DNA of 64,000 nucleotides, taken from assembly GCF_000725425.1 (NCBI RefSeq), contig NZ_CP006019.1:1524480-1588479 (forward strand). The letters are read 5' to 3'. The translations under genes and the position numbers were made by a program. The stretch's first letter is position 1, and each line of letters opens with the position of its first letter. Origin of the DNA: Palaeococcus pacificus DY20341. Its GTDB lineage: Archaea; Methanobacteriota_B; Thermococci; Thermococcales; Thermococcaceae. Of this stretch, positions 46,614 through 63,386 are shown piece by piece. The notes under the pieces are model-generated. The model was not told the DNA's origin. It saw only the letters and a list, made by a program, of their open reading frames with translations, and did no database searches.

Positions 46614-46791
46614 TGCCTAACATTCTCTTTCTCTAATTTTTTGAGAGTTTGAGTTTTGAATTTAGGTTATAGCACTTTAATCAGACAAAAGTTCATAATA
46701 ACAACAAAATGTTAAAAACCTTTTATTTTAAACCTTTTGTTAAAACAAAGCCGAATTATTTTCGATTTTTCAAAAAGCAGCTTTGCCACAA

Positions 46792-46841
46792 CCGAAAGAT
46801 ATATATGCATTTTTATTCATCTTTGAGTAGGTGAGGGCTAA
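46792..46841 (+). promoter_or_regulatory. Promoter of the sulfur amino acid operon
   Basis: CGAAAGATATATATG (about 46793-46807) is a strong BRE/TATA combination, about 25 nt before the expected start of transcription. AGGTGAGGG is the ribosome binding site of the first gene. The preceding 46614-46790 stretch is A+T-rich, non-coding, and shows no other clear feature. Confidence 0.7.
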
Positions 46842-48011: not shown

Positions 48012-49165
48012 GGTTTTCAACTAAAGCTATCCACGTTGGTGAAGATCCAATGGAGATGCAGCATGGGGATGTGGTTTCCCCAATCCACCTCTCAACCACT
48101 TTCGCAAAGAAAAGCATGAAGGAAGTTGAGGAAGGCTATGTTTACTCAAGGAGCGGCAACCCCACGAGGGATAACCTTGAGAAAAAATTAGCGGCACTTG
48201 AAAACGCTAAGTATGGGTTGGCTTTTTCTTCGGGGTTAGCGGCTGAATCTACAATACTCCTGGCTTTACTAAAGAAAGGAGATCATGTCGTAGCTTTCGA
48301 CGATCTCTACGGTGGCACTAAGAGGCTGTTCAATCAAGTTATGGAGCGCTTTGGGATTGAGTTTACTTACGTGGATGCGAGAGAGCCTGAGAATGTTGGA
48401 AGTGCAATAAAAGAGAACACAAAGATGATTTGGCTCGAAACACCAACAAATCCCCTCTTAAAGCTTGCTGACATCAAGGCAATATCTGAGATTGCTCATG
48501 AGAGGAATTTAATCGTGGTTGTGGACAACACATTTGCGAGTCCCTACTTCCAAAATCCCCTTGACTTAGGTGCTGACATAGTTCTCCACAGCGTCACTAA
48601 ATACCTAGGAGGTCACTCCGACGTTGTCGGAGGAGCCGTGATGGTAAATGACAATGATATCTATGAAAAGCTAAAGTTCCATCAAAACGCAGTCGGTGCA
48701 ATTTTGTCACCCTTTGACTCCTGGCTCGTTATGAGAGGCATTAAAACGCTTGCTGTTAGGATGGAGAGGCACGAGAAGAACGCTATGAGGATTGCGAAGT
48801 ATTTAGAGGAACATCCATTAGTTGAGAGGGTTTACTATCCGGGCTTGCCTTCACATCCACAGCACGAGCTCGCAAGGAGGCAGATGCACGGCTTCGGAGG
48901 AATGCTCTCATTCGAGCTTAAAGGAGGGTTGAAAGAGGCAGTAAAGTTCGTAGAGAGCTTGGAGATTTTTGCACTGGCTGAAAGCTTGGGAGGAGTGGAA
49001 TCACTAATTGAGCTCCCGGCAATCATGACCCACGCATCGGTTCCGAAGGAGGAGAGGGAGAAAGTTGGCATAAAAGACTCCCTTATCAGAGTTTCAGTTG
49101 GAATAGAAGACGTTGAGGACTTGATTGAAGACTTGGAAAAAGGCTTCAGGGGGATAAAGCAATGA
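48008..49165 (+). CDS. Cystathionine gamma-synthase/gamma-lyase family enzyme
   Basis: This 385-residue fold-type I PLP enzyme has the cofactor lysine in LHSVTKYLGGHSDVVGG, an N-terminal STKAIHVGEDP ... PIHLSTTF block, substrate-site YSRSGNPTRDNLEK and the C-terminal LGGVESLIELPAIMTHA. Family members interconvert cystathionine with cysteine or homocysteine. It overlaps the upstream PLP gene by 4 nt (ATGA), which argues for coupled function in sulfur amino acid metabolism. Synthase versus lyase direction cannot be decided from sequence alone. Confidence 0.93.
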   Translation: MRFSTKAIHVGEDPMEMQHGDVVSPIHLSTTFAKKSMKEVEEGYVYSRSGNPTRDNLEKKLAALENAKYGLAFSSGLAAESTILLALLKKGDHVVAFDDLYGGTKRLFNQVMERFGIEFTYVDAREPENVGSAIKENTKMIWLETPTNPLLKLADIKAISEIAHERNLIVVVDNTFASPYFQNPLDLGADIVLHSVTKYLGGHSDVVGGAVMVNDNDIYEKLKFHQNAVGAILSPFDSWLVMRGIKTLAVRMERHEKNAMRIAKYLEEHPLVERVYYPGLPSHPQHELARRQMHGFGGMLSFELKGGLKEAVKFVESLEIFALAESLGGVESLIELPAIMTHASVPKEEREKVGIKDSLIRVSVGIEDVEDLIEDLEKGFRGIKQ

Positions 49166-49893
49166 TACCGAGCATCAGTGAGGTTAAAGAATTCTTGAAA
49201 AAGCTCGGCTTCGATGAGAGCTCAGCTAATGGGCTTATAGAGCAGATAGAATACTTTGAAGGAGAAGCACCCCAGAGGGACGACATTGTGAGGGACTACC
49301 TTAGGGAGGAGTGCATAGAGACAATAGTTGACGACATAGTTGAAGAAATCCTAAAGCTAAACAAGGAAAGCATTAAGCTTCTTGACGTCGCAGCTGGCTC
49401 AGGGTTCTTCACGGAGAAAGTCAAGAGAAAGCTTGAGGAGAGAGGAGTCAAAGCAGATGTGTATGCCTTGGATATAACGCCAAGCATGCTGAAAAGGCTT
49501 AATGAAAAAGGAATAACACCCATTTGGGGAGTTGCCGAGAAAATTAGGGAATCCATTGAGATTGCCAATAAACACTACGGCATAAATGTTCCAAAAGAAT
49601 TCGACGTCGTGCTCTCCACTCTGGCGTTCCACCACTTTCTGAAGCCTGAGAGAGTACTAAAAAGCATGAAGAGCGTTTTAAAAGAAAGCGGTAAGGTGAT
49701 AATAGTTGACGTCCTCAAACACGAACATGAGGAGCTCAAAGAAACTTTGAAGGACACTCACCTTGGGTTTTCACTGGAAGAAATAAAAGAGATGGGCTCA
49801 AAGATATTCAAGGAAGTGAAAGCCAGCTATATGGATGTGTACTGTGAAGTCGGCGACATCATAGTCGGCCTTTATAAGGCAGTGTTTGCTTAA
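49162..49893 (+). CDS. Class I SAM-dependent methyltransferase of the sulfur operon
   Basis: This 243-residue methyltransferase has motif I LLDVAAGSGFFTEKVKRKLEERG, VYALDIT, a WGVAEKI segment, VVLSTLAFHHFLKPERVLKSMKSVLKESGKVIIVDV, and a C-terminal strand. It overlaps the cystathionine enzyme gene by 4 nt, so SAM-dependent chemistry is coupled to transsulfuration here, perhaps to feed homocysteine recycling. Substrate unknown. Its stop overlaps the convergent gene by 4 nt. Confidence 0.85.
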   Translation: MIPSISEVKEFLKKLGFDESSANGLIEQIEYFEGEAPQRDDIVRDYLREECIETIVDDIVEEILKLNKESIKLLDVAAGSGFFTEKVKRKLEERGVKADVYALDITPSMLKRLNEKGITPIWGVAEKIRESIEIANKHYGINVPKEFDVVLSTLAFHHFLKPERVLKSMKSVLKESGKVIIVDVLKHEHEELKETLKDTHLGFSLEEIKEMGSKIFKEVKASYMDVYCEVGDIIVGLYKAVFA

Positions 49894-50444
49894 CTAGAGC
49901 TCTTTTTTTCTGCCACTTCTTTTAGCTTTAAGTGAGCTTTTAAAAGCCTCTTTTTGATGATGCGCTCTGCTATGAAGAAGTTCAAGATTCTCCCTAGAAA
50001 ACCATAGCGAAGGGAGTAATATACGCTCTCAATACTTAAGGTCATACCATCTGCAGGAATGAAGTAGTGTTCATACCGCAATTTCTTTAAAAATGTGTCC
50101 TCTTCCAGCATCTCCCCGGAATAGAAGTAGTTTTCTTTAAAGTCAACAATCCGGTATTTTACCCACTTTTCTGCCCCTTTTTCACGGGTGTAGTATATTA
50201 GCCCTTTCTTCAATTTCCCGTCATTTTCAGATTTAAACTCATACTTCGGCCAGAACAGCATGTGATTGTTGATGTTGGATACGAGAGAAAAAACTTCCTC
50301 CACTCTCGCGTCAATAATCACTGCTATCTTGACACAATGAGAGAAACCCCGCGGTGGTTTACACTCTAAAAACTCAACCTGCATATTTTTAAGTCTCTTA
50401 ACAATTGCACGAATCTCCTGCTGGTTGTATCTTTTCGAGTTCAT
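49890..50444 (-). CDS. SRPBCC (START-like) domain protein
   Basis: This 184-residue protein reads as a helix-grip fold: a first strand with HCVKIAVIIDARVEEVFSLVSNINNHMLFWP (the entry loop of polyketide cyclase/coenzyme Q-binding families), then EKWVKYRIVDFKENYFYSGE, IPADGMTLSIESVYYSL, and a long C-terminal helix. Such proteins bind hydrophobic ligands or lipids. GGTGGGAA precedes the ATG. It is a single gene convergent with the sulfur operon. The ligand is unknown. Confidence 0.65.
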   Translation of the reverse strand: MNSKRYNQQEIRAIVKRLKNMQVEFLECKPPRGFSHCVKIAVIIDARVEEVFSLVSNINNHMLFWPKYEFKSENDGKLKKGLIYYTREKGAEKWVKYRIVDFKENYFYSGEMLEEDTFLKKLRYEHYFIPADGMTLSIESVYYSLRYGFLGRILNFFIAERIIKKRLLKAHLKLKEVAEKKSSS

Positions 50445-50543
50445 TTCCCACCGCCTTCATCCATCGAGCGGATTCGTCTATATTCTTGTAAAATTAGAGG
50501 AATAACTTAAAAAATGTAAAAATATGCAAACAAATGGAAGGGA

Positions 50544-50849
50544 CTAACCTTCTAGAAGCTTCCTCTTTCTTCTCTCGTATTCTTCGTCATCTATTTCTCC
50601 CCTTGCATACTTCTCGTCAAGTATCTCAAGCGCTCGATTTTTTGATGTCTTTGTAGTTCCAGTTGAGCTCTGCTCGATTATCCACTTAATGAACCATACT
50701 ACTCCAACTATTATCGCAACCCAGAATAAGAGCATGAATATTGCTCCGAAAATTCCAAAGTAGCCAAATCCCATCATATCATGCCACCCCCATTCAAATT
50801 CTCCACTGTGGACTAAAAATCCCCCAGCGTTAATATTTCCAAACATCAT
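50544..50849 (-). CDS. Membrane protein with C-terminal SHOCT domain
   Basis: This 101-residue protein has one or two hydrophobic segments (FGYFGIFGAIFMLLFWVAIIVGVVWFIKW) and ends in a SHOCT motif (ALEILDEKYARGEIDDEEYERRKRKLLE), a short oligomerisation element often in membrane proteins of unknown role. The N-terminus has Gly/Phe/His residues (HSGEFEWGWHDMMGFG). A variant of the 18-bp upstream element seen before the Met/His-rich and DUF302 genes precedes it. Confidence 0.75.
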   Translation of the reverse strand: MMFGNINAGGFLVHSGEFEWGWHDMMGFGYFGIFGAIFMLLFWVAIIVGVVWFIKWIIEQSSTGTTKTSKNRALEILDEKYARGEIDDEEYERRKRKLLEG

Positions 50850-50880
50850 TTTATTCTCCTCATAGTTCTTATGTGTAAAA

Positions 50881-50900
50881 GATTATAGGGTTTATTATTA
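50881..50900 (-). promoter_or_regulatory. Shared promoter element, divergent copy
   Basis: GATTATAGGGTTTATTATTA at 50881-50900 resembles GCTAATAGGCTTATTATT found at 43331 and 63322, with most positions conserved. It begins about 32 nt upstream of the SHOCT gene ATG rather than 47, so it is weaker evidence of the same regulon. Confidence 0.4.
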
Positions 50901-50992
50901 CCAAGATCAAAAATTTCTTTGAAGGATTTTCTCAGAACGCAAAAGAGTCGTTCCATTAATTATGATGTTTTGCAGGGGCAATGTTTAAAATT

Positions 50993-51014
50993 AAGTTATT
51001 AAAATTAATAACTT
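50993..51014. promoter_or_regulatory. Palindromic operator before thi4
   Basis: Perfect 10-bp arms AAGTTATTAA (50993-51002) and TTAATAACTT (51005-51014) are separated by 2 bp. A TATA-like GTTTAAAAT lies 4-10 bp upstream (about 50983-50991), and the ribosome binding site GGTGAT starts at 51015, directly after the palindrome. This is typical repressor-operator placement. A ThiR-type archaeal thiamin regulator is the natural candidate, inferred from the gene controlled. Confidence 0.65.
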
Positions 51015-51023
51015 GGTGATAGC

Positions 51024-51815
51024 ATGACTGCAAAGATATTGGCAAAGGTTAGTGAAAAAGACGTAACCTCAGCTATAGTCGATACTTTCTACGGTATGCT
51101 TAAAGAATACACAGAGTCAGATGTTATAATCGTAGGCGCAGGGCCTAGTGGATTAACCGCCGCTAAAGAGCTTGCAAAAGCAGGTAAAAAGGTCTTGGTT
51201 ATAGAAAGGAACAACTATCTTGGAGGAGGCTTTTGGATCGGAGGATTCTTAATGAACAAGATAACTGTAAGAGCACCAGCACAAGAAGTGTTAGAAGAAC
51301 TTGGTGTTCCATATGTGAAGTATACGGAAGGGCTTTACGTTGCAGATGGTCCTCATGCATGTTCAAAGCTCATTGGAGCAGCATGTGACGCGGGAGTGAA
51401 GTTCCTCAACATGACGAGCTTTGATGATGTTGTTATAAGAGATGGGAAAGTTGCAGGTGTTGTGGTTAACTGGACTCCAGTTCAAGCTTTGCCAAGACAA
51501 ATAACCTGTGTTGACCCGATAGCTCTTGAGTCAAAGATTGTAATAGACGCTACCGGACATGATGCCTTTGTTGCCAAGAAGCTCGAAGAGAAAGGGCTCC
51601 TGAAGACGAGAGGACACGGCTCGATGTGGGTTGAGGAGAGCGAAGACGCGGTTATAAATCACACGAGTGAAGTTTATCCAGGACTTATAGTTACGGGAAT
51701 GGCAGTTTCTACAGTTTTTGGGCTTCCAAGAATGGGACCAACCTTTGGAGGAATGCTCTTAAGCGGAAAGAGAGCTGCTGAAGTGGCTTTAGAGAAGCTC
51801 AAAGAACTGGAGTGA
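51024..51815 (+). CDS. thi4: Thi4-type thiazole synthase
   Basis: This 263-residue protein makes the ADP-thiazole precursor of thiamin from NAD and glycine. It has the flavoprotein-like motif [35 protein letters not shown], and the substrate block [16 protein letters not shown]. The residue immediately before the conserved VDP is Cys ([13 protein letters not shown]), the position that I understand to carry the sacrificial Cys of yeast Thi4 and His in sulfide-dependent methanogen enzymes. Complete and in frame, preceded by a palindromic operator. Confidence 0.92.
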
Positions 51816-51820
51816 TCCTA

Positions 51821-52474
51821 ATGAAGATTTACATTGAAGATTCCCTTTGGGACTCCTTTTCATTTTTTGAGGAGATTAGGAAGTTTTTCAAGTTCTCTGT
51901 AGAATTTAGTCCCTATAAATTTAGAGATCCCTATTTTCTAGCTTACATACGGGTTAGAAATCCAAATAAGAAGGAATTTTACGAACCCTTTCCGGTTGAA
52001 GTCGAGAATGAAAAGAAGGGTCTCATAAAAGGGGTTATCTATGATGGCGTGGAACTGCTGAAATATTTCTCTCGAGATGTTGATATCTCTGAGCCGACAG
52101 TTTTGATAACGAACAGGCTCATAGCCACATTTGGAGAAGATGGGCGATATCATCTTAGAATGATTGTAATGGGACCTGCAGCGATAATTTCGCTTAAGGG
52201 AGTACTCTATGCTCCAGCAAAGTTCCCTCAATATTATATGATGCATTCATTTGGATTTGATGAGAAAATCGATGTAAAGGTTGACAAAGTGTTGAAAATG
52301 CTCCTTCTTCAGTTCTATGCTTATTTTAAGCATGAAGAGATCTTTTGTGAGAATAGGGAATGCATGCTCCACAATTGCCATACAACAGAGGAGATAAAGA
52401 AAGTGAAAGGGTTGTGTGAAAAACATAAGGAAATGCTTGGAGACGTCGTAAATCTGAGTGCTTTAACAGTTTAA
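51821..52474 (+). CDS. Conserved archaeal protein, putative metallopeptidase-like (DUF6775-type)
   Basis: This 217-residue protein has no membrane segment. The C-terminal region has a Cys/His set, CENRECMLHNCHTTEEI ... GLCEKHKEM, suggestive of a structural metal site like that of archaemetzincin-type proteins. The middle (PTVLITNRLIATFGEDGRYHLRMIVMG) is beta-rich. I associate it with DUF6775 only tentatively, and no HExxH is visible. ATG 51821 follows GGAGTGAT, and its upstream GTG overlaps the thi4 stop. Co-transcription with thi4 is likely; function unknown. Confidence 0.6.
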   Translation: MKIYIEDSLWDSFSFFEEIRKFFKFSVEFSPYKFRDPYFLAYIRVRNPNKKEFYEPFPVEVENEKKGLIKGVIYDGVELLKYFSRDVDISEPTVLITNRLIATFGEDGRYHLRMIVMGPAAIISLKGVLYAPAKFPQYYMMHSFGFDEKIDVKVDKVLKMLLLQFYAYFKHEEIFCENRECMLHNCHTTEEIKKVKGLCEKHKEMLGDVVNLSALTV

Positions 52475-52488
52475 AAAAAGAAAAAAGA

Positions 52489-54609
52489 TCAAACTTTCAA
52501 AAACTTCGCGTTTATAGCAACTATAACTGTGCTCATGCTCATCAGCAAAGCACCTACTGCTGGGCTTAATAGTATTCCATAGTTGTAAAGCGCCCCTGCA
52601 GCTAAAGGAATTGCAAATGTGTTGTAGCCTGTTGCCCATGCCAAATTCTGCACCATTTTTCCATAGGTTGCCCTTGCAAGATGTATTGCCGTTATGACGT
52701 CTCTCGGGTCGTTCTTTACTAGGATTATATCGGCACTCTCTATTGCCACATCAGTTCCTGCTCCAATTGCTACCCCAACGTCCGCTTGAATCAAAGCAGG
52801 AGCATCGTTTATTCCGTCTCCAACCATTGCCACGATGAAGCCTTTTTCTTGAAGCTCCTTAACTTTCTCCGACTTTTGATGGGGCAAGACTTCTGCAAAG
52901 TAGCCATCTAAGCCAAGCTCCTCGGCAACCCACTTTGCAACTTTAGCGTTGTCTCCTGTGAGCATGTAGGCTTTAATTCCCATCTCATGGAGCCTCTTTA
53001 TAGCTTCTCTCGATTCTGGTCTTATCTTATCAGCTAAAGCTAAAGCACCAGCTAGCTTTCCATCGATAACTAAAAATACTACTGTCTTTCCTTGCTCCAA
53101 GACCTTATTAACACGCTCATCCTCTTTCCAGAGTCCGTTTTCCTTAAGAAAGCCAGGACTTACGACGAGAACCTCTTTGCCGTTAATAACTCCCTGAACA
53201 CCTTTGCCAGGTAGTACTTTAGATTGTTCAACCTCATAGAGCTCAAGTCCAAGTTCCTTTGCTTTTTCCACTATCCCCTGTGCTATTGGATGTGATGAAT
53301 GTCCCTCAAGGGCAGCTGCATATTTTAAAATCTCATTGTCTTCAAGTTCATCCAATGGAATTATATCCGTTACCTCAAACTTTCCTTCGGTCAAAGTTCC
53401 AGTCTTGTCAAAGACAACCACCTGAACATCTTTTGCCCTCTCAAAGGCTTCTCTGTTCCTAATTAGTATTCCCTTTCTCGCTGATATTGATGTTGAGACT
53501 GAGACCACTAAAGGAACAGCCAATCCCAAAGCGTGGGGGCATGTAATTACCATCACGGTGACCATTCTCTCGAGAGCGAACACAAAGGGCTTTCCTAAGT
53601 AGAGCCAAGTCCCTAAAGTTGCGCTTCCAGCAGTGATTGCAATGAGTGTGAGCCAAAAAGCTGCCCTGTTGGCTAAGTCTTGAGTTCTCGACCTCGTCTC
53701 TTGAGCCTGTCTTACAAGCTCGACGACCTGCATGAGATAGGTATCCTTACCCGTCTTCTCAATCCTTACTTTAATCGAGCCTTCTAAGTTTATTGAGCCG
53801 CCGATAACAATGTCACCTGGTTTCTTATAGACGGGCTTTGACTCACCGGTGAGCATTGCCTCGTTTACGCTCGTTTCGCCCTCAATTATGATGCCGTCAG
53901 AGGGTATCTTCTCGCCGGGCTTGACCAAAACTATATCTCCCTTCTTGAGCTCGCTCACTGGAACGTCTTTTATTCCCTCAGGAGTTATTAGGTGAGCATC
54001 AGTTGGCATGAGCTTTATTAGCTCCTCCAAAGCCCTCGAAGCACCGAGAACAGAGCGCATCTCTATGTAGTGACCTAAAAGCATGATGTCAATAAGCGTT
54101 GCAAGCTCCCAGTAGAAGGTCTTTCCGGGCAACCCAAAGGTCACAGCAACGCTGTAGAAGAACGCCACTGTGATTGCCAAAGCTATTAGTGTCATCATTC
54201 CCGGAGTTCTTTTCTTAAGTTCATCTTTCATCCCCGTTAGGAACGGCTTTCCGCCGTAGAAGTAGACCACTGTCGATAGCGCAAAGAGAACGTATCTATC
54301 GCCTGTGAACGTGAATGTGAAACCAAGGAACTTTTGAATTAGTGGAGAAAGGAGCAATATTGGAATTGTAAGTATAGCAGAAACTATAAATCTCTTCTTA
54401 AAGTCCTCCATCATCATTTTATGGTGCTCTGCATGCGAATGCTTGTGCTCGCCATGATCTTTATGTTCCATGTGTTCATGCTCTTTTCCCATTTCATGCC
54501 CTTCATGTTCCATATGTTCATGCATTTTGTGCTCTTCATGTTTGTGCATTTCCATCTCTTCATGTTCTTCATGGGTGTGCTTATTGTGCACCTTTTTTTC
54601 ATCTTCCAT
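52489..54609 (-). CDS. copB: Copper P1B-ATPase CopB (CPH type)
   Basis: This 706-residue P-type ATPase has a strikingly His/Met/Glu-rich N-terminus (about residues 5-65, with repeated EHE, HMEH, HKH units) instead of HMA domains. The ion-path motif is CPH (VITCPHALGLAVPLV), with DKTGTLTEG, LTGDNAKVAK and [16 protein letters not shown] with a His-rich tail defines the CopB (P1B-3) group, proposed to export Cu2+ or Cu+. ATG 54609 is preceded by GGTGG; the ATG at 54624 is too near the promoter. It lies 13 kb from copA but has a related inverted repeat upstream. Confidence 0.93.
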   Translation of the reverse strand: MEDEKKVHNKHTHEEHEEMEMHKHEEHKMHEHMEHEGHEMGKEHEHMEHKDHGEHKHSHAEHHKMMMEDFKKRFIVSAILTIPILLLSPLIQKFLGFTFTFTGDRYVLFALSTVVYFYGGKPFLTGMKDELKKRTPGMMTLIALAITVAFFYSVAVTFGLPGKTFYWELATLIDIMLLGHYIEMRSVLGASRALEELIKLMPTDAHLITPEGIKDVPVSELKKGDIVLVKPGEKIPSDGIIIEGETSVNEAMLTGESKPVYKKPGDIVIGGSINLEGSIKVRIEKTGKDTYLMQVVELVRQAQETRSRTQDLANRAAFWLTLIAITAGSATLGTWLYLGKPFVFALERMVTVMVITCPHALGLAVPLVVSVSTSISARKGILIRNREAFERAKDVQVVVFDKTGTLTEGKFEVTDIIPLDELEDNEILKYAAALEGHSSHPIAQGIVEKAKELGLELYEVEQSKVLPGKGVQGVINGKEVLVVSPGFLKENGLWKEDERVNKVLEQGKTVVFLVIDGKLAGALALADKIRPESREAIKRLHEMGIKAYMLTGDNAKVAKWVAEELGLDGYFAEVLPHQKSEKVKELQEKGFIVAMVGDGINDAPALIQADVGVAIGAGTDVAIESADIILVKNDPRDVITAIHLARATYGKMVQNLAWATGYNTFAIPLAAGALYNYGILLSPAVGALLMSMSTVIVAINAKFLKV

Positions 54610-54652
54610 ATCAACCACCATCATTAATTTCTAACTAACAAAAGATATTTAA

Positions 54653-54672
54653 CCATTTTTCATACAAAATGG
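54653..54672. promoter_or_regulatory. Inverted repeat upstream of copB
   Basis: CCATTTT (54653-54659) and AAAATGG (54666-54672) form a perfect 7-bp inverted repeat with a 6-bp spacer. It lies directly upstream of the TATA-like GTTAAATATC (minus strand, about 54643-54652). The minus strand reads CATTTTGT then AAAAAT, like the copA promoter, so a common copper regulator is plausible. Confidence 0.5.
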
Positions 54673-54727
54673 AAAATCCAAGCCGGACAGATGCACAAGA
54701 AATAAAGAGAAAAGTTGAGCTGATCCC

Positions 54728-55294
54728 CTATTCTCTCATCATGTTTTCTATTTCTTTCAATCTTTTTCCGGGTTCGAGTTCTCTTTCAGCCGAAGATATC
54801 ATAAGACCCTCTGCGGCTTCTATTGTCTCAACATCAAAGTTTCCAGTCAAAATACTCTCACTAGTCAAGTCTATCATGGTGTTAAGGGCTTCCTCAATGT
54901 TCTCAACCTTCCCCATCGCCTTCTCAAACTCTACCTGAATTTTCGCGACATCCTCTGCACCCGGTCCTTCCGCTATGCTCCGAACAACATCCTTGCTGAA
55001 CTGGATGAAATTGGCTGAAACTTTAACAAGCTCCCTTTGGATCTCAGCCTCTTCCATCAAAAGGAGCAAACGCTTTGCCTGTCTTATTCTCTGTTCTAAG
55101 GCGAGGTACTTTACAGCGCTTCTCTTAAGAAGGGCTTCATCCCCAAGCTTTGCCGCTTCTTTTCCCTGGAGGAAAATTTTCTGTTTTAAATTCTCGAGAT
55201 TGTTTATATACTGCTTGAGAGCCATCTTGGCTTTCCTCATCCTAACCTTCCGCTCAATCTCTTTCTCCTCTTTAGACTTCCAAAACCTAACCAT
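54728..55294 (-). CDS. ESCRT-III/Snf7-like helical protein A
   Basis: This 188-residue, highly charged, all-helical protein begins MVRFWKSKEEKEIERK. A long hairpin follows (KAKMALKQYINNLENLKQKIF ... LLKRSAVKYLALEQRIRQAKRLLLLM), then SANFIQFSKDVVRS and a central acidic helix FEKAMGKVENIEEALNTM, the order of elements in Snf7/CHMP proteins. The C-terminus (PGKRLKEIENMMRE) could be an MIT-interacting motif. It starts 8 nt inside the PP2C gene, downstream of kinase and Vps4-like genes. Assignment rests on pattern and context, not on a search. Confidence 0.65.
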   Translation of the reverse strand: MVRFWKSKEEKEIERKVRMRKAKMALKQYINNLENLKQKIFLQGKEAAKLGDEALLKRSAVKYLALEQRIRQAKRLLLLMEEAEIQRELVKVSANFIQFSKDVVRSIAEGPGAEDVAKIQVEFEKAMGKVENIEEALNTMIDLTSESILTGNFDVETIEAAEGLMISSAERELEPGKRLKEIENMMRE

Positions 55295-56087
55295 CTAAAC
55301 CACCCTCTCGAAACACTACAACAGTTACATTGTCCTTCGTAGCTTTGAGCGCCTCTCCAATCAACCTTTCTGCAATATCTTTCGGATCGCCATTTGATGC
55401 AATTTCTGCAATTCTATCCTCCTCAATATAGTCATGCAGCCCATCCGAGCTTAACAGTAGAACATCACCTTTCTCAAGCTTCCATTCGTAGAAATCAACG
55501 CCAAAGTCAATGCCAAGAGACTTCGTTATGACGTTCCTCATTGGGTGATGTTTGGCTTCTTCCTCCGTAATTGTTCCATTATCAAGTAGTTCTTGCACAA
55601 GAGAGTGATCCTTTGTTCTTTCAATTATCCTTCCATCACGTATTAGGTAAGCCCTGCTGTCACCAGTATTTGCAATTATTGCTTTGTTTCTCCTAACAAA
55701 AGCGGCCACAAGAGTCGTCCCCATACCTTCCCTTTCTCCAACGGCATTCTTCATTATGTGGTCATGAGCAAGTTTGTAAGCTTTCTCAAGGAGGGCTTTA
55801 ACTTCTTCCTTACTCATTCTCTCTTTGTATTCATCCTTAAGGACCTTTTTTAGGGTTTCAACAGCGATTTTTGAAGCAATCTCGCCAGCGTTATGACCGC
55901 CGAGGCCGTCGGCTACCGCGAAGAGATAAGCATCGGGGAGTTTGAGGAGGAGCATATTATCCTCATTGTTCTCTCGCCCTCCAACGTGGGAGATACCGCA
56001 GGCTTTCCCATCAATCTCGGTAGCTGTCTCCCATTCGCGCGCCCTGCTTACGACGTTGAGCAGCTTTCGAACAAATTGGACACTCAT
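55287..56087 (-). CDS. PP2C-family Ser/Thr protein phosphatase
   Basis: This 266-residue phosphatase has all metal-binding motifs: VGGRENNEDN, FAVADGLGGHNAGE, GTTLVAAFV, ANTGDSRAYLI, LLLSSDGLHDYI and KDNVTVVVF. It removes phosphate from Ser/Thr residues using two Mn/Mg ions. The ATG overlaps the stop of the Vps4-like gene (ATGA) and its end overlaps the ESCRT-III-like gene, so it is co-translated with both. It is soluble. The natural opponent is the kinase encoded two genes upstream. Confidence 0.93.
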   Translation of the reverse strand: MSVQFVRKLLNVVSRAREWETATEIDGKACGISHVGGRENNEDNMLLLKLPDAYLFAVADGLGGHNAGEIASKIAVETLKKVLKDEYKERMSKEEVKALLEKAYKLAHDHIMKNAVGEREGMGTTLVAAFVRRNKAIIANTGDSRAYLIRDGRIIERTKDHSLVQELLDNGTITEEEAKHHPMRNVITKSLGIDFGVDFYEWKLEKGDVLLLSSDGLHDYIEEDRIAEIASNGDPKDIAERLIGEALKATKDNVTVVVFREGGLDG

Positions 56088-57265
56088 CCCCCGAACTCCT
56101 CCGCCCACTTCTCATACCTCTCGATATCCCTCCTAGTCAGAGGGCTCTTAATCTTCTTGAACGCTTCCTCAAAATCCCTCATCTCCAAGGGTCTCGTCCT
56201 TAGAGACCTTTTGTTGAGCTCATGAAACGGCAAATTAGCCAGTTTGTACAGGTCCCTGTTCTCTTCTCTAATCATGTTCCATATCGCCTCTTGGCATAAG
56301 TTCCTAATATCCCTTCCCGAGTACAGTCGTCTAACGCTCTCTTCAGCAATTGCATCCAAATCGAGCTTAGAAATATCCAAACCCTTAGTATTGATCTTTA
56401 TAATCTCCCTCGTGGCCTTCTTATCTGGTAATGGAACATAAATCCTCTTTGGAAAACGCGAGAGAACGGCCTCATCCAAGTCCCACGGAGTGTTTGTTGC
56501 AGCCAACGTCAGCACGAGCACATCACTTCCCTTGTCGTAAAAACCCTCCAATTCAGTTAAAAGCGTTGAAAGCATTCTTCTCGAGGCCTCACTTGTATCG
56601 TTGGAGCGTTTTGTGGTTAAAGCATCAATCTCATCAATGAAGACTATGCTTGGAGCGTTTTTGCGAGCAACATCATAAATGGCTGTGATTATCTTGCTTG
56701 ACTCTCCGAAGTATTTGCTCAGGACGTTAGATGCCTTAACATTGAAGAAGGTGGCGTTTAAGCTTCCCGCCGCCGCTGAAGCTAAGAGTGTCTTGCCCGT
56801 TCCAGGAGGACCGAAGAGAAGGATACCCTTCCAAGGTTGGATTGCTTTGGGCCTTTGTAAGGCCGAGATCACTATCGTCTCCATCATCAGGACTTTTACT
56901 TCATCTAAACCACCGATGTCGCCCCAAGTGACGTTAGACTTTGCTATTAGATTCCTAGCGTACTCTTTAAACTGATCCTCCTCATCTTCATCCTGTTGGG
57001 TTCTTTTTCCTTCAGCGCTTACCACAGCTTTCTTACCATACTCTCCTTTCTCAATTTGTTCGGCCACTTTCTCCCACTTTTTTGCCTTCTTGAGGTAAAA
57101 TTCACTGTTATAGGGCACGTGCTTTGCAAGCTCCCTCAACAGGGAAGCACACTTCAGCGCTTTTTTTCTTGCGGTTTCTAAGTCATTTTGAGAGAGAGCC
57201 CTATCGAATTCCTTTTTCGTTTTTTCAAATTCATTTAATAATGGGCCTGATAAATCCACGGGCAT
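56084..57265 (-). CDS. Vps4/CdvC-type AAA ATPase with MIT-like N-terminus
   Basis: This 393-residue ATPase has residues 1-75 predicted as a three-helix MIT-like bundle (FEKTKKEFDRALSQNDLETA ...), then a charged linker, then an AAA domain. Its motifs are Walker A GPPGTGKT (152-159), pore loop SKYFGESSK, Walker B VFIDEIDAL and arginine fingers in LSRFPKRIYVPLP. The C-terminal ending DFEEAFKKIKSPLTRRDIERYEKWAEEFGG region matches the last helix typical of Vps4. Vps4 disassembles ESCRT-III filaments. ATG 57265 follows AAGGAGGC, 2 nt after the kinase stop. Confidence 0.88.
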   Translation of the reverse strand: MPVDLSGPLLNEFEKTKKEFDRALSQNDLETARKKALKCASLLRELAKHVPYNSEFYLKKAKKWEKVAEQIEKGEYGKKAVVSAEGKRTQQDEDEEDQFKEYARNLIAKSNVTWGDIGGLDEVKVLMMETIVISALQRPKAIQPWKGILLFGPPGTGKTLLASAAAGSLNATFFNVKASNVLSKYFGESSKIITAIYDVARKNAPSIVFIDEIDALTTKRSNDTSEASRRMLSTLLTELEGFYDKGSDVLVLTLAATNTPWDLDEAVLSRFPKRIYVPLPDKKATREIIKINTKGLDISKLDLDAIAEESVRRLYSGRDIRNLCQEAIWNMIREENRDLYKLANLPFHELNKRSLRTRPLEMRDFEEAFKKIKSPLTRRDIERYEKWAEEFGG

Positions 57266-57267
57266 TT

Positions 57268-58962
57268 TCAAGCCTCCTTAAAGCCAAGCTTTATTTTGTG
57301 AACGATGATCTCGGCCTTTTCAATAAGCTCGGGTGGAATGTCCAAGTTGTTCTCCAACCGGAGCTTGAGCTGTTCTTTCAGCTTTGAGAGTTCTTCTTTA
57401 ACGTCCCCTTTAGCGTAGTGGGTAAGGTCTTCCGCATATTTGATACTGTTAACTGAATCCCCGAGCTTTAGATAGAGTAGGAACAGCTCACCAGCGTAGT
57501 ATGCACTTCTCGAGAAGTCCCTAACCGAGATACTCTTGTTAAGGTTCTCCTTATAGTTAAAGCCCAAAATCTTTGCCAAATCTTGTTGAAGCTCTTCAAT
57601 GGACCGATAGCGTTTGTCTTTTTCCTTTTGGAGGCACTTCAATATAATTGGCTCCAGTACCTTCGCATCGGGGTTGATCTGGCTTGGGAGAATAACTTCC
57701 TCCAACGTGATCTTCGAGGCAATCTCCACGAAGTCCTCTCCCAAAAATGGGGGTCTTCCTGTAACCAGCTCATATAAAACAGCCCCCACCTGCCAAACGT
57801 CCGTTCTTTCGTCGGTGGTTCCGAATTTTCCGCTTATCTGTTCCGGAGCAGCATAGAGAGGAGTGAAGCTAACCGCTAAGGTAGTCTTGCTGTCCTTCAG
57901 TAACTTGCTCAGTCCCCAGTCGCTGATCTTTGCTTTTCCATTTTTGAGAAGGATGTTGGATGGTTTTAGATCCCTATGCACTATGCCCTTAGAGTGGGCA
58001 TATTTAAGCCCTTCACAAACATCGAAAATTATCTTTGTGGCTTTTTCAATGCTCACGGGCTTCTCAACTTTAGCCAAGCTCGTCTCGCAGTACTCCATTT
58101 CCAAATAAGGAACCGGGAAGATATTGTAATCATAGAGCTCAACGATGTTTGGATGAGTTAGGAGCGACCAGTTCCTGACCTCCTTTAAAAATGCCTTTCC
58201 TCCTTCTTCCGTCAGACTGATGGGAACCTTAATAGCGACCACGGTCCCATCCATTTTCTCCGCCCTGTAAACTCTCGCAAAGCCTCCCTCTCCAATGGGC
58301 TCAGCCTTCCGGTATCTGGAGAAGAGGGCCTCCAGCAGGGAAGATGATCCGTGATGGGCTGGAGTCGGGACTTCCGCAGGTGCTTCTTTCCTTTCAGGCC
58401 TTTCAAACACATTGGTGGTTACTTTCACCTTTGCACTCACGAGACCGGAGCGGACGATGACCTTAGCATTGACCTTTCCGCTCTTTCTCGGAACGATTTT
58501 AACAGTTCGAGAAACGTATTCGCCGGGCCTGATGTTCTGGAAGTAGAGCCTCGTCGGGCTGATGTCAAAGTACTTCCCGAGGTTTTCAAGGTCAACCTCG
58601 ACGTTTATCATTCCAAGGGTTCCGTTCCTGAACCCGACAGTCATGTAACTCTCTTCGCCGGCGTGGAGCTTTTTGGGTATATCAACTATGAGGGACTTTC
58701 TAAGGATGTCTTTCATGTCCTCTCTCGGTGCCCGTGGCGGCTGGGGCGGAATTTGTCTTGGCGGATACCTGCGTTTGTACTTATACGTTGACTTGAACGC
58801 GTCTTTGAGCAGATGCCTTATGAAGTGCCCGAACCACGCTAAGACTATTATAAAAACTATGAAACTGCTTGACCTGCCAAAGATGAACGATACAAACAGC
58901 ACTACAAGGAACAGCTTCACCAGACTTTCGACTATGTCATCGTCCATGAACCAGTGACCCAT
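57268..58962 (-). CDS. Membrane-anchored Hanks-type Ser/Thr protein kinase
   Basis: This 564-residue protein has two N-terminal transmembrane helices (about 12-50), a basic Pro-rich linker, an Ig-like/CARDB-type beta domain (about 90-188), and then the kinase domain (about 217-475). Kinase motifs are IGEGGFARVY, VAIK, HRDLKPSN, DWG in place of DFG, APEQ and DVWQVGAVLYEL. A helical tail follows. With a two-helix hairpin, both Ig-like and kinase domains would be cytoplasmic. ATG 58962 follows GGAG. A possible separate promoter lies in 58969-59107. Confidence 0.9.
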   Translation of the reverse strand: MGHWFMDDDIVESLVKLFLVVLFVSFIFGRSSSFIVFIIVLAWFGHFIRHLLKDAFKSTYKYKRRYPPRQIPPQPPRAPREDMKDILRKSLIVDIPKKLHAGEESYMTVGFRNGTLGMINVEVDLENLGKYFDISPTRLYFQNIRPGEYVSRTVKIVPRKSGKVNAKVIVRSGLVSAKVKVTTNVFERPERKEAPAEVPTPAHHGSSSLLEALFSRYRKAEPIGEGGFARVYRAEKMDGTVVAIKVPISLTEEGGKAFLKEVRNWSLLTHPNIVELYDYNIFPVPYLEMEYCETSLAKVEKPVSIEKATKIIFDVCEGLKYAHSKGIVHRDLKPSNILLKNGKAKISDWGLSKLLKDSKTTLAVSFTPLYAAPEQISGKFGTTDERTDVWQVGAVLYELVTGRPPFLGEDFVEIASKITLEEVILPSQINPDAKVLEPIILKCLQKEKDKRYRSIEELQQDLAKILGFNYKENLNKSISVRDFSRSAYYAGELFLLYLKLGDSVNSIKYAEDLTHYAKGDVKEELSKLKEQLKLRLENNLDIPPELIEKAEIIVHKIKLGFKEA

Positions 58963-59107
58963 GTGCAACTCCTATCCCTCCACTTCCTCTAATTCTTACC
59001 ACTTCGCACATCTGTTAATTCTTTTTAGTATCACTCTGCAGTTTTCTTGGGCAATACTTTTTAGTTCTGCAAAGTTTAAAGGGCAAGACTTTGACCAAAA
59101 TGGAAAG
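58963..59107 (-). promoter_or_regulatory. Gap within the ESCRT-like locus, possible internal promoter
   Basis: This is the only sizeable gap in the gene set. On the minus strand, TTTAAACTTTG (about 59071-59080) and ACTAAAAAG (about 59021-59030) are TATA-like and could start a transcript for the kinase-ATPase-phosphatase-filament quartet. No terminator hairpin is evident, so read-through from upstream is also likely. Confidence 0.4.
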
Positions 59108-59707
59108 TCACTCCACCTCGGTCTCCCTGGCCTTCTCCTTCGTGACTCTCTCGGCTGCAATTTCGGGTTCGAGCTCCCCTTCCTTAACGGCTTGAATTGT
59201 CCTTAAGATCTCTTGCAGCTCCTTATCTTCCACAAGCTCGACCCCCGCTCCCAATGCTTGGTCAGTGTACCCGAGCATCTTGTTGAGGTTCTCATTTATG
59301 TTTTGAGCATCAAGCTGCATGCTCACGAGGTGCTTCTCAAGTTCTTCTGGGGACATTTTCTGCAGAATCTTCCAAGTGGGGGTTTCCTTTAGGAGGGCCT
59401 CATTCTCCTTGATTATCAGAAGGTTGCTGACGAGCATGGCCTGCTTGTTCAGCTGGACGTGCGTGTTCTGCAAGCTCTGCTTTCTCTTGTTCAACGTTTT
59501 GATCTTCGTGGCTATCGTCAGCTCTTCACTCTTGCTCCTCGCTTTTTTGGCCTGTTCAAAGAGCAGTGCGATTTGTCTATCCATCTCTGCAATTTCGTCC
59601 TCAATCTTCTTAATCTGCATGTCCAGCTTTACCTGATTCTCCCTGAGCTTGTCTATGGGTATATCTAGAGGATTCTTTCGACCGAAAAATCTGGAGATAA
59701 GGCCCAT
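59108..59707 (-). CDS. ESCRT-III/CHMP-like helical protein B
   Basis: This 199-residue protein starts MGLISRFFGRKNP, a short basic-hydrophobic N-terminus like membrane-inserting CHMP/Snf7 proteins. A helical hairpin follows (LRENQVKLDMQIKKIEDEIAEM ... ATKIKTLNKRKQSLQNTHVQLNKQ), then KMSPEELEKHLVSMQLDAQNINENLNKML, strongly reminiscent of the CHMP central helix. An acidic tail (GELEPEIAAERVTKE) ends it. The ATG directly follows the upstream stop (TAAATG) with GGAGGA as site. A paralogue of the next upstream product. No database check was possible. Confidence 0.68.
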   Translation of the reverse strand: MGLISRFFGRKNPLDIPIDKLRENQVKLDMQIKKIEDEIAEMDRQIALLFEQAKKARSKSEELTIATKIKTLNKRKQSLQNTHVQLNKQAMLVSNLLIIKENEALLKETPTWKILQKMSPEELEKHLVSMQLDAQNINENLNKMLGYTDQALGAGVELVEDKELQEILRTIQAVKEGELEPEIAAERVTKEKARETEVE

Positions 59708-60304
59708 TTATAGTTCCTCCTCCAAGTCTTTTGGAAGTTCTTTTGAAGCTATTTTAGTCGCTACCTCATTTACGTCGGCTTCTCCTGTTTCTACCTTGGC
59801 CCATGCTTCCATTAGCTCCTTCTCTGTCTGGTCTTCTGCCGCTTCAAACTCGGCAATCTCCATTTCGAAAACGCGGTTCAAGCTGCTGACCATTTCATCG
59901 AACTCTTTCCCATCTAAGCTTACCTTCACGAGAACATTCTCAAGCTGTTCAGGCTCAACTTTGCTGAGCTTTTCCCATATTCCAATTCTCCTGAGCTCCT
60001 TCTCGTACTTCTTGACAACTATTAGATTCTTGACAAAAGTGTACTGCCTCTGGGCTGTCATAAAATCTCTTAGCTTAAGCTTCTGCTCCATATCAAGGCT
60101 TTTTATCTCCTGTGCGAGCATCTTCTTCTTTAGCACATCGGCCCCAATACCTTCTTGGAAAAGCTGTTTCTTTTTCTTTTCAATACTGTTTATTTCCTTC
60201 TTTGTCCGTTCCAACCTGTTTCTTAGTCGAATTTCTTCTTCCTGAAGCTCTCTTAGGGAGAGCTTTTCGATTGGGTTCTTCCTAAACCTATCTAATATCC
60301 TCAT
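59708..60304 (-). CDS. ESCRT-III/CHMP-like helical protein C
   Basis: This 198-residue protein is built like protein B: MRILDRFRKNPIEKLSLREL at the N-terminus, a highly charged hairpin (EEEIRLRNRLERTKKEINSI ... MLAQEIKSLDMEQKLKLRDF), IWEKLSKVEPEQLENVLVKVSLDGKEFDEM in the centre, and an acidic tail ending PKDLEEEL. B and C align by eye across WKILQKMSPEELEKHL/WEKLSKVEPEQLENVL. ATG 60304 has GAGGTG 6 nt upstream; the longer start at 60313 is that site. It is probably a co-polymerising filament subunit. Confidence 0.68.
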   Translation of the reverse strand: MRILDRFRKNPIEKLSLRELQEEEIRLRNRLERTKKEINSIEKKKKQLFQEGIGADVLKKKMLAQEIKSLDMEQKLKLRDFMTAQRQYTFVKNLIVVKKYEKELRRIGIWEKLSKVEPEQLENVLVKVSLDGKEFDEMVSSLNRVFEMEIAEFEAAEDQTEKELMEAWAKVETGEADVNEVATKIASKELPKDLEEEL

Positions 60305-60314
60305 GTTCAACACC

Positions 60315-62141
60315 TCACTTCCTCATCAATACCAGACCAAACCCGTCAATATACTTCACAAGATACTTGCCGTCCTTGGCCATTTCATAAAAGGCCCGTT
60401 TAATGTAGCTCTCATCTCCACAATCCAAACATTCGTTAAGCGGCAAGTAATCCTTGCCGGCGATTTTCTCTTCCACACATTTCTTTACTTGTGCATAAAG
60501 CTCTTCATCAAGCTCTAAACGCACCAGGGGGAGCAGTTCTTTGGCGTATCTGTCGTTGGGGTTGTAAATCAGCTCGCCGCTCTCCATATCAAGGAGGATT
60601 AAGGATACATTCTCAGAATAGAAGTTCTGGTGGAACTGGTCTGAGTTCACGTACTTTCTGATTTTTTCTTCGAACCCTAAAGGTGAAGCTATTAACAGGA
60701 TTGTTCTCCTGTCCTTTGAGGAATCCCTCGCGTCTACCAAGTACATATTTACATCGGCAAGTTCTAATGGGTCGGTATCAAACCCATATTCGGCCAGCTT
60801 ATCAACCCGTGTTAGATAACGAGCATTTACCAAAATCTTTTCCTTCCTTCCGAGGAGTTTTTTCTCTTTTAATGATATTTCAAGGTACCTGTTTTCGGGG
60901 AGATTCTTTAAGCTTCTTTCATCAAGCTTGTCAATAAATTTCGAGGTGTCTTCACCCTTCTTCTCCTCTATGCGCTCTACGACATATTTTTTACCCAAAA
61001 TCCTTATTTGTTTATTGAATTTGCTTTTTGTTCTGCCTAGGAAATTGAGCTCTTGGATTTTTGCATCTTCCCTTACAACCAAGCGAGAACCTTTCTCTAT
61101 GTTTTTAGATGCTCTAAGCACCTCTTCAATCTTCTTTTTGAGCTCTGCATCTTTGGCTGAGAGTTCTATCTCTTTTTTCCTGAGCTCCATTTCTTTCTGT
61201 TTCAATTCTAATCCCTTTCTTCTTATCTGCTCCTCTAGAGTTTTTACTTCTTTCATAATGTTTTCTCTGGCTCTTTCGAGCTCTTGTTTGAGTCTTTCTT
61301 GGAGTTCCTTATCTTTCAACTCGAGAAGTTTGTTAGTCAGAGCTTCTTTCTCCCTTTCAAATCTTTCTATAAGCTCTTGTTTTTCCCGTTCGAGTCTTTG
61401 TATCTCCCCTATGCTTGACATCGATATTTCTTCCGCTATCCTTCTCTTTTCATCTTCAAAAAATTCTATCAATTCCTTTATGCGTTTTTTAAGCTTCTGA
61501 ACTTTTTCCTCGTATACGAACTTTACCGCCTCAACTTCATCTGCTTTCTCCTTTTCCCAATCCTCGAGTAGTGTTCTAAACCAATTGTACTTGTTCGCTT
61601 CATTTATGGCTTCTTTGATCTTCTCTTTGTAGCCTCCCCATGTCCTTTTGAGATAATACCTAAGGGGCAGCTTTATTTCGGGATTTTCTAGCTGTTTTTC
61701 AATCCACTTATCAATTCCAAGATAGTAAGTCTTTAGTAGTTGAAGAACTTCAGGATCTCTTCTATAAAGCTTGGTTAGGAAATCTTCCTTTGTTGTTATC
61801 TCAAATACATTGTACTTTAGAATTTCATCTATTATCATCAATTCGTAGTCTGAGAAGCGTTTTTGTGCTGGCGGGAAGTCTTCGTTGTTCTTCTTAAAAC
61901 TCCACGCTAGTATTGCCAAAGAAGCTTCAAATTTTGCCCTGAATGCATTATCTAAATCTTCCAAAAAATCTCCACAGTGTCCATTTAGGTACTTTTCATA
62001 AGCTTCCGTTATCTCGTTCCAAAGCCTTTGTCTTGTATTAAACTCTTCTACCAATATATCCCTCCCCTGCCTCAGAACTCTCTCTGCCGGTCTTAGGAGA
62101 GCTTTAATGCATGAAATATCTCCTTCGTCAAAGATCACCAT
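60315..62141 (-). CDS. Long coiled-coil protein of the ESCRT-like locus
   Basis: This 608-residue protein has an N-terminal helical domain (1-185), a long coiled coil (about 190-370, rich in E/K/R/L heptads such as KQELIERFEREKEALTNKLLELKDK), then a basic alpha/beta region (LDERSLKNLPENRYLEIS ... DVNMYLVDARDSSKDRRTILLIAS). The C-terminal 65 residues look like a winged helix (YAQVKKCVEEKIAGKDYLP ... GFGLVLMRK). I recognise no family. It is the likely scaffold, as it sits 9 nt after the first gene and 10 nt before the filament genes. GAGGTGATTCT precedes the ATG. Confidence 0.75.
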   Translation of the reverse strand: MVIFDEGDISCIKALLRPAERVLRQGRDILVEEFNTRQRLWNEITEAYEKYLNGHCGDFLEDLDNAFRAKFEASLAILAWSFKKNNEDFPPAQKRFSDYELMIIDEILKYNVFEITTKEDFLTKLYRRDPEVLQLLKTYYLGIDKWIEKQLENPEIKLPLRYYLKRTWGGYKEKIKEAINEANKYNWFRTLLEDWEKEKADEVEAVKFVYEEKVQKLKKRIKELIEFFEDEKRRIAEEISMSSIGEIQRLEREKQELIERFEREKEALTNKLLELKDKELQERLKQELERARENIMKEVKTLEEQIRRKGLELKQKEMELRKKEIELSAKDAELKKKIEEVLRASKNIEKGSRLVVREDAKIQELNFLGRTKSKFNKQIRILGKKYVVERIEEKKGEDTSKFIDKLDERSLKNLPENRYLEISLKEKKLLGRKEKILVNARYLTRVDKLAEYGFDTDPLELADVNMYLVDARDSSKDRRTILLIASPLGFEEKIRKYVNSDQFHQNFYSENVSLILLDMESGELIYNPNDRYAKELLPLVRLELDEELYAQVKKCVEEKIAGKDYLPLNECLDCGDESYIKRAFYEMAKDGKYLVKYIDGFGLVLMRK

Positions 62142-62150
62142 AGAATCACC

Positions 62151-62672
62151 TCATAGCAGTAATGAAAGCTCCTCCCGGAGCTTTTTAGCCATATACTCAA
62201 CTACTTCTCCATACCCCACAAGCGAAATGACTATCTGGGTCTCATTAGTGCTTTTTTCATCTATTTCTATCCTAATCTCAACCCTTCCCTTTTTTGTGTA
62301 TGCTCCGTAAGTCATTGAGAGGTCATCTGAAGAAACGTAATATGCATTGCATTTGGATAGGATGTATCTAAGCAGCTTTCGCACAATCTGAGGATTTTCG
62401 TTCGTTATATACTCCAATTCTACTTTGTTAGGAGCCACTTTTGACTTTAGGTCTTCTTTTTTAACGTGGTACACTTCGACTTTATCTGACGAAGGAGGGT
62501 CAAGTTTTGACAGAAGCTCTTCAGCAAATTCGGAAACATTTTCTGTATCGATTATGAAGGTAATACCCCTTAGCTTTGAAATCTCGGCCCTTTCCGACCA
62601 CTTTTCAAGGAGGTATTCGATACGCTTTCTCTCAGCGTCGTTTCCATAGCTAATAATAAAGAGATGCGGCAT
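62151..62672 (-). CDS. Unknown alpha/beta protein heading the ESCRT-like locus
   Basis: This 173-residue protein opens MPHLFIISYGNDAERKRIEYLLEKW, with alternating strands and helices, and ends YGEVVEYMAKKLREELSLLL. No family recognised. ATG 62672 has GAGGTG 9 nt upstream. An in-frame ATG at 62738 lies about 25 nt from the strong TATA and could begin a leaderless longer form (22 extra basic residues). It is the first gene of the locus. Confidence 0.65.
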   Translation of the reverse strand: MPHLFIISYGNDAERKRIEYLLEKWSERAEISKLRGITFIIDTENVSEFAEELLSKLDPPSSDKVEVYHVKKEDLKSKVAPNKVELEYITNENPQIVRKLLRYILSKCNAYYVSSDDLSMTYGAYTKKGRVEIRIEIDEKSTNETQIVISLVGYGEVVEYMAKKLREELSLLL

Positions 62673-62758
62673 CGGAATTTTCACCTCGTTTGGTTTTTTG
62701 AACACTTGCTCTCTTCCAAGGTGTTTCTGCTTTTGCATATATTACTGCATTTGTGGAA

Positions 62759-62774
62759 CATATAAAGTTTTCGG
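62759..62774 (-). promoter_or_regulatory. Promoter of the ESCRT-like locus
   Basis: On the minus strand CCGAAAACTTTATATG is a near-ideal archaeal BRE plus TATA box, and transcription would start near 62738. Its strength suggests that the locus is well expressed. It shares the CGAAAACTTTATA core with the DUF2202 promoter at 19711, but not that operator. Confidence 0.75.
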
Positions 62775-62894
62775 CAAAATGGAGAAAATCTAATTTCTCC
62801 ATATAGTGAAGTCAACATTAGTTGGATCATTTGGATAATGAATTCATCATAAATGGAACATTCGTAAGTTCAAAAGATGGGAGGGGAGAGGAGT

Positions 62895-63275
62895 TTAAAC
62901 CCTATCAACAACCCTCTTTACTATCTCCTCAACCTGCTCGGCGACTTTCAGTAACTTCTCATTTTCTGCCACTTCCATAGCTTTCGTTGGTAGCATGGCA
63001 CTTACGTAAGTTTTTCCGCCTTTAATGTAAACTAAAATATTGCATGGTAAAAATGCCCCGCTGTCATAGTCGATTCCTATGAGCTGACTTGAGAATTTTG
63101 GATTGCATACACCTAAGATGACATACTCCTCCATGTCCAGACCAAGCTTCTCTTTAAACAGCTTATCAACTCTAATCTCGCTGAGCACCCCAAAGCCTTC
63201 CTTTTTGAGCTCTTCTTTGACTTTATCAACAGCTTTTTCAAAGCTCAGATTAGTCTCTTTCTTGTGGACATACAT
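62895..63275 (-). CDS. DUF302 family protein
   Basis: This 126-residue protein has the DUF302 pattern: FEKAVDKVKEELKKEGFGVLSEIRVDKLFKEKLGLDMEEYVILGVCNP, then SGAFLPCNILVY. The conserved Cys residues and a fold related to TbpA-type proteins are known, but the role is not. AGGTGATGT precedes the ATG. The 18-bp element 63322-63339 lies 47 nt upstream, exactly as for the Met/His-rich gene at 43284. It is adjacent to a metal ATPase gene in the same direction, so a metal-stress link is plausible. Confidence 0.85.
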   Translation of the reverse strand: MYVHKKETNLSFEKAVDKVKEELKKEGFGVLSEIRVDKLFKEKLGLDMEEYVILGVCNPKFSSQLIGIDYDSGAFLPCNILVYIKGGKTYVSAMLPTKAMEVAENEKLLKVAEQVEEIVKRVVDRV

Positions 63276-63321
63276 TTCACATCACCTACTTTATTGTTCA
63301 TGTTTACTTCTGATTTGAAAA

Positions 63322-63339
63322 GCTAATAGGCTTATTATT
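63322..63339 (-). promoter_or_regulatory. Shared 18-bp promoter element (copy 2)
   Basis: GCTAATAGGCTTATTATT is identical to 43331-43348 and is placed at the same distance (47 nt) from the start codon. The chance of both an 18-bp match and identical spacing is small, so a common regulator or promoter class is likely. Flanking sequences differ, which argues against a recent duplication. Confidence 0.6.
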
Positions 63340-63386
63340 ATCAAAATTGAAAGCAGAAAAGGGCAAAATTTTCAAAAATAAAAAAG

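Follow-up and report, generated by a model that had tools for sequence, protein, structure and literature searches.

Palaeococcus pacificus DY20341T carries a genuine ESCRT-type cluster for membrane remodelling, in which filament proteins and a Vps4-type ATPase are encoded together with a kinase and a phosphatase of their own. We analysed a stretch of 64,000 nucleotides (the window, whose positions are used below) of its chromosome, which is one contig of 1,859,370 bp (PMC4574382). The reading that explains the locus best, and that we regard as likely, is a "Main-clade" euryarchaeal ESCRT system for non-divisional membrane remodelling gated by the kinase and phosphatase. This type of cluster, as well as one protein of P. 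pacificus, is already published: the text of Makarova et al. 2024 defines a "Main" ESCRT clade with Thermococcales included and proposes that it sorts phosphorylated cargo (PMC10936438). ESCRT-III neighbourhoods common to Thermococci and Methanococci had been noted earlier by the Makarova group and discussed from 2010 on (PMC4390880). An earlier note on the window, made from the DNA alone, had mentioned reports of Cdv/ESCRT genes in some euryarchaea; the 2024 description of the Main clade has P. pacificus included (PMC10936438).

The same note had placed eight genes on one strand at 54728-62738, and all eight open reading frames (ORFs) lie there on the minus strand. They are transcribed in the order U195, CC608, H201, H199, STK, Vps4, PP2C and ESC3a, with few-base overlaps or gaps between them; the sole exception is a 139-base gap between H199 and STK. 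The features are:

62760..62774, minus strand: probable archaeal promoter, CGAAAA + CTTTATA (BRE/TATA-like), about 25 bases upstream of U195, read from sequence
62151..62738, minus strand: U195, 195 aa, first in the operon, conserved as neighbour of CC608
60315..62141, minus strand: CC608, 608-aa coiled-coil protein with homologues in Thermococci, Archaeoglobales and Methanothermococcus
59708..60304, minus strand: H201, ESCRT-III-like, 198 aa from ATG or 201 aa from GTG at 60313
59108..59707, minus strand: H199, ESCRT-III-like, 199 aa, N-terminus MGLISRFFGRKNP similar to CHMP alpha-0
58969..59107, minus strand: 139 bases separating H199 from STK; a TTTAAA element here, read from sequence, may be an internal promoter
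57268..58968, minus strand: STK, membrane-anchored Ser/Thr kinase, Pkinase E 3.4e-47
56084..57271, minus strand: Vps4-type AAA ATPase, 395 aa, AAA E 2.8e-39, Vps4_C
55287..56108, minus strand: PP2C Ser/Thr phosphatase, Stp1 type, NF033484 231.5 bits (cut-off 230)
54728..55294, minus strand: ESC3a, Snf7-like ESCRT-III, 188 aa, C-terminal MIM1-like motif ELEPGKRLKEI

The cluster is not a chance arrangement, as the full set of eight genes, in unchanged order, is also present in eight further genomes that we retrieved (L037, L038, L043-L048). Homologues of the locus also occur in Methanothermococcus and Archaeoglobales.

The ATPase is of Vps4 type. Its Vps4_C domain, the hallmark C-terminal helix of the earlier description, scores above the Pfam gathering score and is present in 12/12 homologues. 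We placed 61 AAA domains in one tree, and the Vps4-type sequences all split from Cdc48 and PAN with support 100/100; the tree was built without eukaryotic or crenarchaeal references and thus tells us what the window ATPase is not, rather than its exact placement. This phylogeny, proposed earlier as a check, shows no grouping with proteasomal or Cdc48 ATPases, and we rejected a Cdc48 or PAN identity on that basis. Thermococcales Vps4 members fall in the Main clade in a published tree, as described in the text of that paper (PMC10936438). Pfam called no MIT domain in the window ATPase or its homologues. In two relatives, the alignment to the NCBIfam CdvC model begins at model position 21-28, which is the evidence for a possible MIT-like N-terminus; the window ATPase scores 210 bits against this model, below the cut-off of 650.

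We examined the three helical proteins, which the earlier note took to be ESCRT-III homologues, by sequence profiles and by fold. ESC3a matches Snf7 in 21/21 homologues (best E 4.5e-6; the window copy scores just below the Pfam gathering score), and 18 of these 21 carry a relaxed MIM1 pattern at the C-terminal tail. By these sequence features, ESC3a is an ESCRT-III protein. One ESC3a copy elsewhere, L041:1372-1983, has an altered C-terminal tail sequence, possibly through a frameshift. For H199 the Snf7 matches are weak and cover 15/20 homologues (best E 9.9e-4), and H201 has no Snf7 match in Pfam. These two proteins are paralogous (hhalign probability 98.7-98.9, E 1.3e-17), and no reliable hhalign match links either of them to ESC3a. 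All three proteins have a basic first half, or core, and an acidic tail; no MIM1 pattern was found in H199 or H201. Structure prediction, another check put forward earlier, gave a long alpha1-alpha2 hairpin for both members of the pair in AlphaFold (AF2) models (H199, pLDDT 75.6, helices 18-54 and 59-101; H201, pLDDT 69.7), with archaeal ESCRT-III filaments as the best PDB neighbours. Against 350,542 PDB chains, Foldseek ranks 1-5 for H199 are S. islandicus CdvB/CdvB2 (E ~0.1), and rank 1 for H201 is the CdvB2 filament (E 0.31), in a list that includes Vipp1; since E-values of 0.1-0.3 are not significant singly, the evidence for the pair is the ranking. The only PDB match of the H201 sequence profile is CdvB, at a non-significant E of 0.34-0.43, and the ESC3a and H199 profiles gave spurious PDB matches only.

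These weak E-values, and the missing Snf7 match of H201, would also suit a reading that keeps ESC3a as the sole ESCRT-III and takes H199 and H201 for unrelated scaffolds of coiled-coil type. We consider this improbable, because CdvB/CdvB2 rank first for both proteins, H199 matches Snf7 in most homologues, and a Methanothermococcus locus (L093) has H199/H201 while ESC3a is absent within the 12 kb examined. Based on sequence and models, H199 is very probably ESCRT-III, and the fold model makes H201 probably so. The earlier inference therefore stands for ESC3a and, with weak Snf7 matches, for H199; H201, which lacks a Snf7 match, probably joins them by its Foldseek ranking and its paralogy with H199.

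The remaining genes correspond to the Main-clade gene set, which in the published text comprises Vps4, ESCRT-III, arCOG09748, arCOG08177 and, often, a membrane STK with Ig-like and PCI-like parts and an STP (PMC10936438); the window has this content and order. We assigned arCOG numbers by matching the published locus description, not by an arCOG search. On this basis CC608 corresponds to arCOG09748, described as ESCRT-II-like, with N-terminal helical, coiled-coil, globular and C-terminal winged-helix parts; the arCOG09748 member from P. pacificus is the one that Makarova et al. 2024 modelled, as their text describes (PMC10936438). We infer that U195 corresponds to arCOG08177, for which the same text gives a Cas2-like and a TBP/adaptin-appendage-like domain (PMC10936438). 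U195 has no Pfam domain, and its homologues often begin about 22 codons later (MPHLF...). CC608 and U195 are the long coiled-coil protein and the unknown protein listed earlier, and the membrane-anchored kinase and PP2C phosphatase were likewise recovered. We also observed, at L096:5331-7322 in G019, a 663-aa ORF in which an H199-like ESCRT-III region is fused to a CC608-like N-terminal region; G019 has no Vps4 match at E 1e-60. This fusion ORF supports a putative physical association of H199 with CC608. The window kinase has a membrane segment at 12-30, a kinase domain at 213-470 and a helical C-terminus of about 95 aa, as judged from hydropathy and domain limits. It has no large ectodomain, several homologues have a second membrane segment, and an Ig-like region is reported for the STK family of the Main clade in the published text (PMC10936438).

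We sampled 74 high-quality Thermococcales genomes for the distribution of these genes. The main Vps4 is present in 32/74 and absent from 42/74. H199/H201 accompany it in 32/32 genomes versus 1/42 genomes without it (p 4e-20), and ESC3a in 28/32, so that H199/H201 are the invariable companions of this Vps4 and ESC3a is an accessory component. Ten of the high-quality genomes, all with ESC3a, encode a second Vps4 paralogue (~60% identical), whose gene adjoins that of ESC3a in the islands that we read. The solo ATPases of Pyrococcus and Thermococcus form a third, related type (~51% identity), with no ESCRT-III or partner genes found nearby.

Sulfolobus divides by the same ESCRT-III/Vps4 core (PMC10117752), and the cluster could be imagined as an accessory, Cdv-like division machine. 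However, the P. pacificus genome encodes FtsZ twice along with one CetZ-like gene, in line with the FtsZ-based division assumed earlier, so division is not the expected role of the cluster; a Cdv system would be division machinery in place of FtsZ. The main-clade Vps4 is missing from most Thermococcales, and the text of Makarova et al. 2024 describes no CdvA for the clade (PMC10936438). We therefore rejected a division role, which we consider highly improbable. The CetZ-like match, at G000:C1:138921-139895 outside the window, contains an in-frame TAG.

The locus appears to be mobile. In G040, a member of another genus, it is 93% identical in DNA over window 52489-63376 and its Vps4 is 98% identical, whereas neighbouring matches are 80-83%, Cdc48 87% and a distant window region 67-76%; Vps4 of G001, from the same genus as the window, is only 80% identical. 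This comparison of sequences points to recent exchange of the locus between genera. The alignment to L037, from another genus, shows a block at 46702-63376 that is 91-93% identical, against 80-83% for neighbouring matches. The block includes the ESCRT locus as well as a P-type ATPase gene and was likely transferred horizontally in recent time. A DUF6775/DUF7001 probable metallopeptidase at 51812-52474 (plus strand) lies inside a stretch missing from the L037 alignment.

From the observed gene content, Vps4 type, ESCRT-III affinity, co-occurrence and FtsZ presence we infer how the filament polymerises, how Vps4 is recruited, what phosphorylation controls and what the output is. In this scheme the constant pair H201/H199, together with the accessory ESC3a, would polymerise at the cytoplasmic side of the cell membrane via N-terminal amphipathic segments. 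CC608 and U195 may be ESCRT-II/adaptor-like parts that position the filament or bind cargo. Vps4 would be recruited by MIT-MIM contacts, with the MIM1-like tail of ESC3a as best candidate partner, and would remodel and recycle the ESCRT-III filament; the membrane-anchored kinase and PP2C phosphatase may act as an on/off switch for assembly or for the binding of cargo. As output we favour, tentatively and at slightly less than even confidence, vesicle budding or membrane-protein sorting, and otherwise repair. We count in favour of a Main-clade system the Vps4_C domain and AAA tree, the Snf7 matches, the fold models with their Foldseek ranking, the H199-H201 paralogy, the charge pattern, the ESC3a tail, the co-occurrence, the G019 fusion, FtsZ and the published description. 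Against it we count the weak H199/H201 E-values, the missing hhalign link to ESC3a, the lack of a Pfam MIT domain and of MIM1 in H199/H201, and unpublished work cited in PMC10117752, in which each T. kodakarensis Vps4 homologue was disrupted and vesicle production was unchanged; those homologues are not necessarily main-clade.

The cluster shares the ESCRT-III fold and a Vps4-type ATPase with the Sulfolobus Cdv system (CdvA, CdvB, CdvB1-3, CdvC), but differs in its kinase and phosphatase, its FtsZ-bearing host and an ATPase below the CdvC cut-off. With eukaryotic and Asgard ESCRT-III/Vps4 it shares the hairpin fold, the basic core with acidic tail and the MIM1-like tail, but it is kinase-coupled, shows no visible ubiquitin link and has very low sequence identity. 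According to two reviews on vesicles, ESCRT-III is missing from Thermococcales (PMC10117752; PMC6524685). The P. pacificus locus contradicts this statement, which makes the unresolved origin of the abundant Thermococcales vesicles testable again.

The compact eight-gene form has one kinase, whereas expanded islands in many Thermococcus genomes have several large ones. We observed expanded ESCRT islands with several receptor-like Ser/Thr kinases at L049-L060, L064-L074 and L082-L092 in other Thermococcales, and the loci that we retrieved encode 32 receptor-like proteins by our count, with ORFs taken stop to stop. Their topology, predicted from hydropathy only, runs from an N-terminal hydrophobic segment through an ectodomain of 140-1050 aa and a second such segment to the kinase and, finally, a C-terminal tail. 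One of them, L082:5563-9348, has an intracellular macro domain between membrane segment and kinase. For a comparison of ectodomains we took one syntenic position, the gene that immediately follows the main Vps4 on its 3' side, in ten loci whose Vps4 is 85-99% identical. The kinase domain is 86-94% identical among eight loci and 67-72% identical to the L068/L090 pair. The ectodomains are mostly at shuffled-sequence identity or unmatched past the first 20-40 residues; the propeller/PEGA ectodomains of G021, G022 and G049 show partial similarity, and close similarity is found only between L068 and L090. Pfam recognised PEGA repeats and propellers, SBP_bac_5 (oligopeptide-binding type), CARDB, TPR or nothing, and the kinases of two loci have hardly any ectodomain.

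These ectodomains bear on two other readings. A PspA/Vipp1-like membrane-stress or repair device, in which filaments patch damage, a kinase monitors the state of the envelope and Vps4 does the recycling, would fit Vipp1 in the H201 Foldseek list, the patchy, non-essential distribution and the window kinase, which could sense the membrane itself as it lacks a large ectodomain. We consider this rather unlikely, as the solute-binding, propeller and PEGA ectodomains of the expanded relatives are better suited to an external ligand or to cargo than to lipid stress. Hypervariable ectodomains, recent transfer between genera and presence in 32/74 genomes would fit a conflict or antiviral system, with kinase, membrane remodelling and receptors that recognise viruses or neighbours. 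Yet PADLOC matches only generic kinase, AAA and phosphatase domains, on which ground we set a PADLOC-based defence classification aside, and we noticed neither defence genes nor mobile elements beside the locus in the regions inspected; we judge this reading unlikely.

Receptor-like kinases with interchangeable outer domains in Thermococcus ESCRT clusters are apparently new. The main text of the Main-clade paper makes no specific mention of them or of the H199/H201 pair (PMC10936438), and a literature search, with most subscription journals outside its reach, found no relevant report of receptor kinases in archaea that are tied to ESCRT or carry PEGA domains. One possibility, which we offer with some reserve, is that a set of transmembrane receptor kinases gates Thermococcales ESCRT, with ectodomains exchanged as cassettes while the signal peptide and kinase on either side stay conserved, and that specific external ligands, neighbours or viruses set off the remodelling. 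The variable receptor kinases suggest an external trigger for archaeal ESCRT, which would constitute an archaeal signalling-to-membrane pathway.
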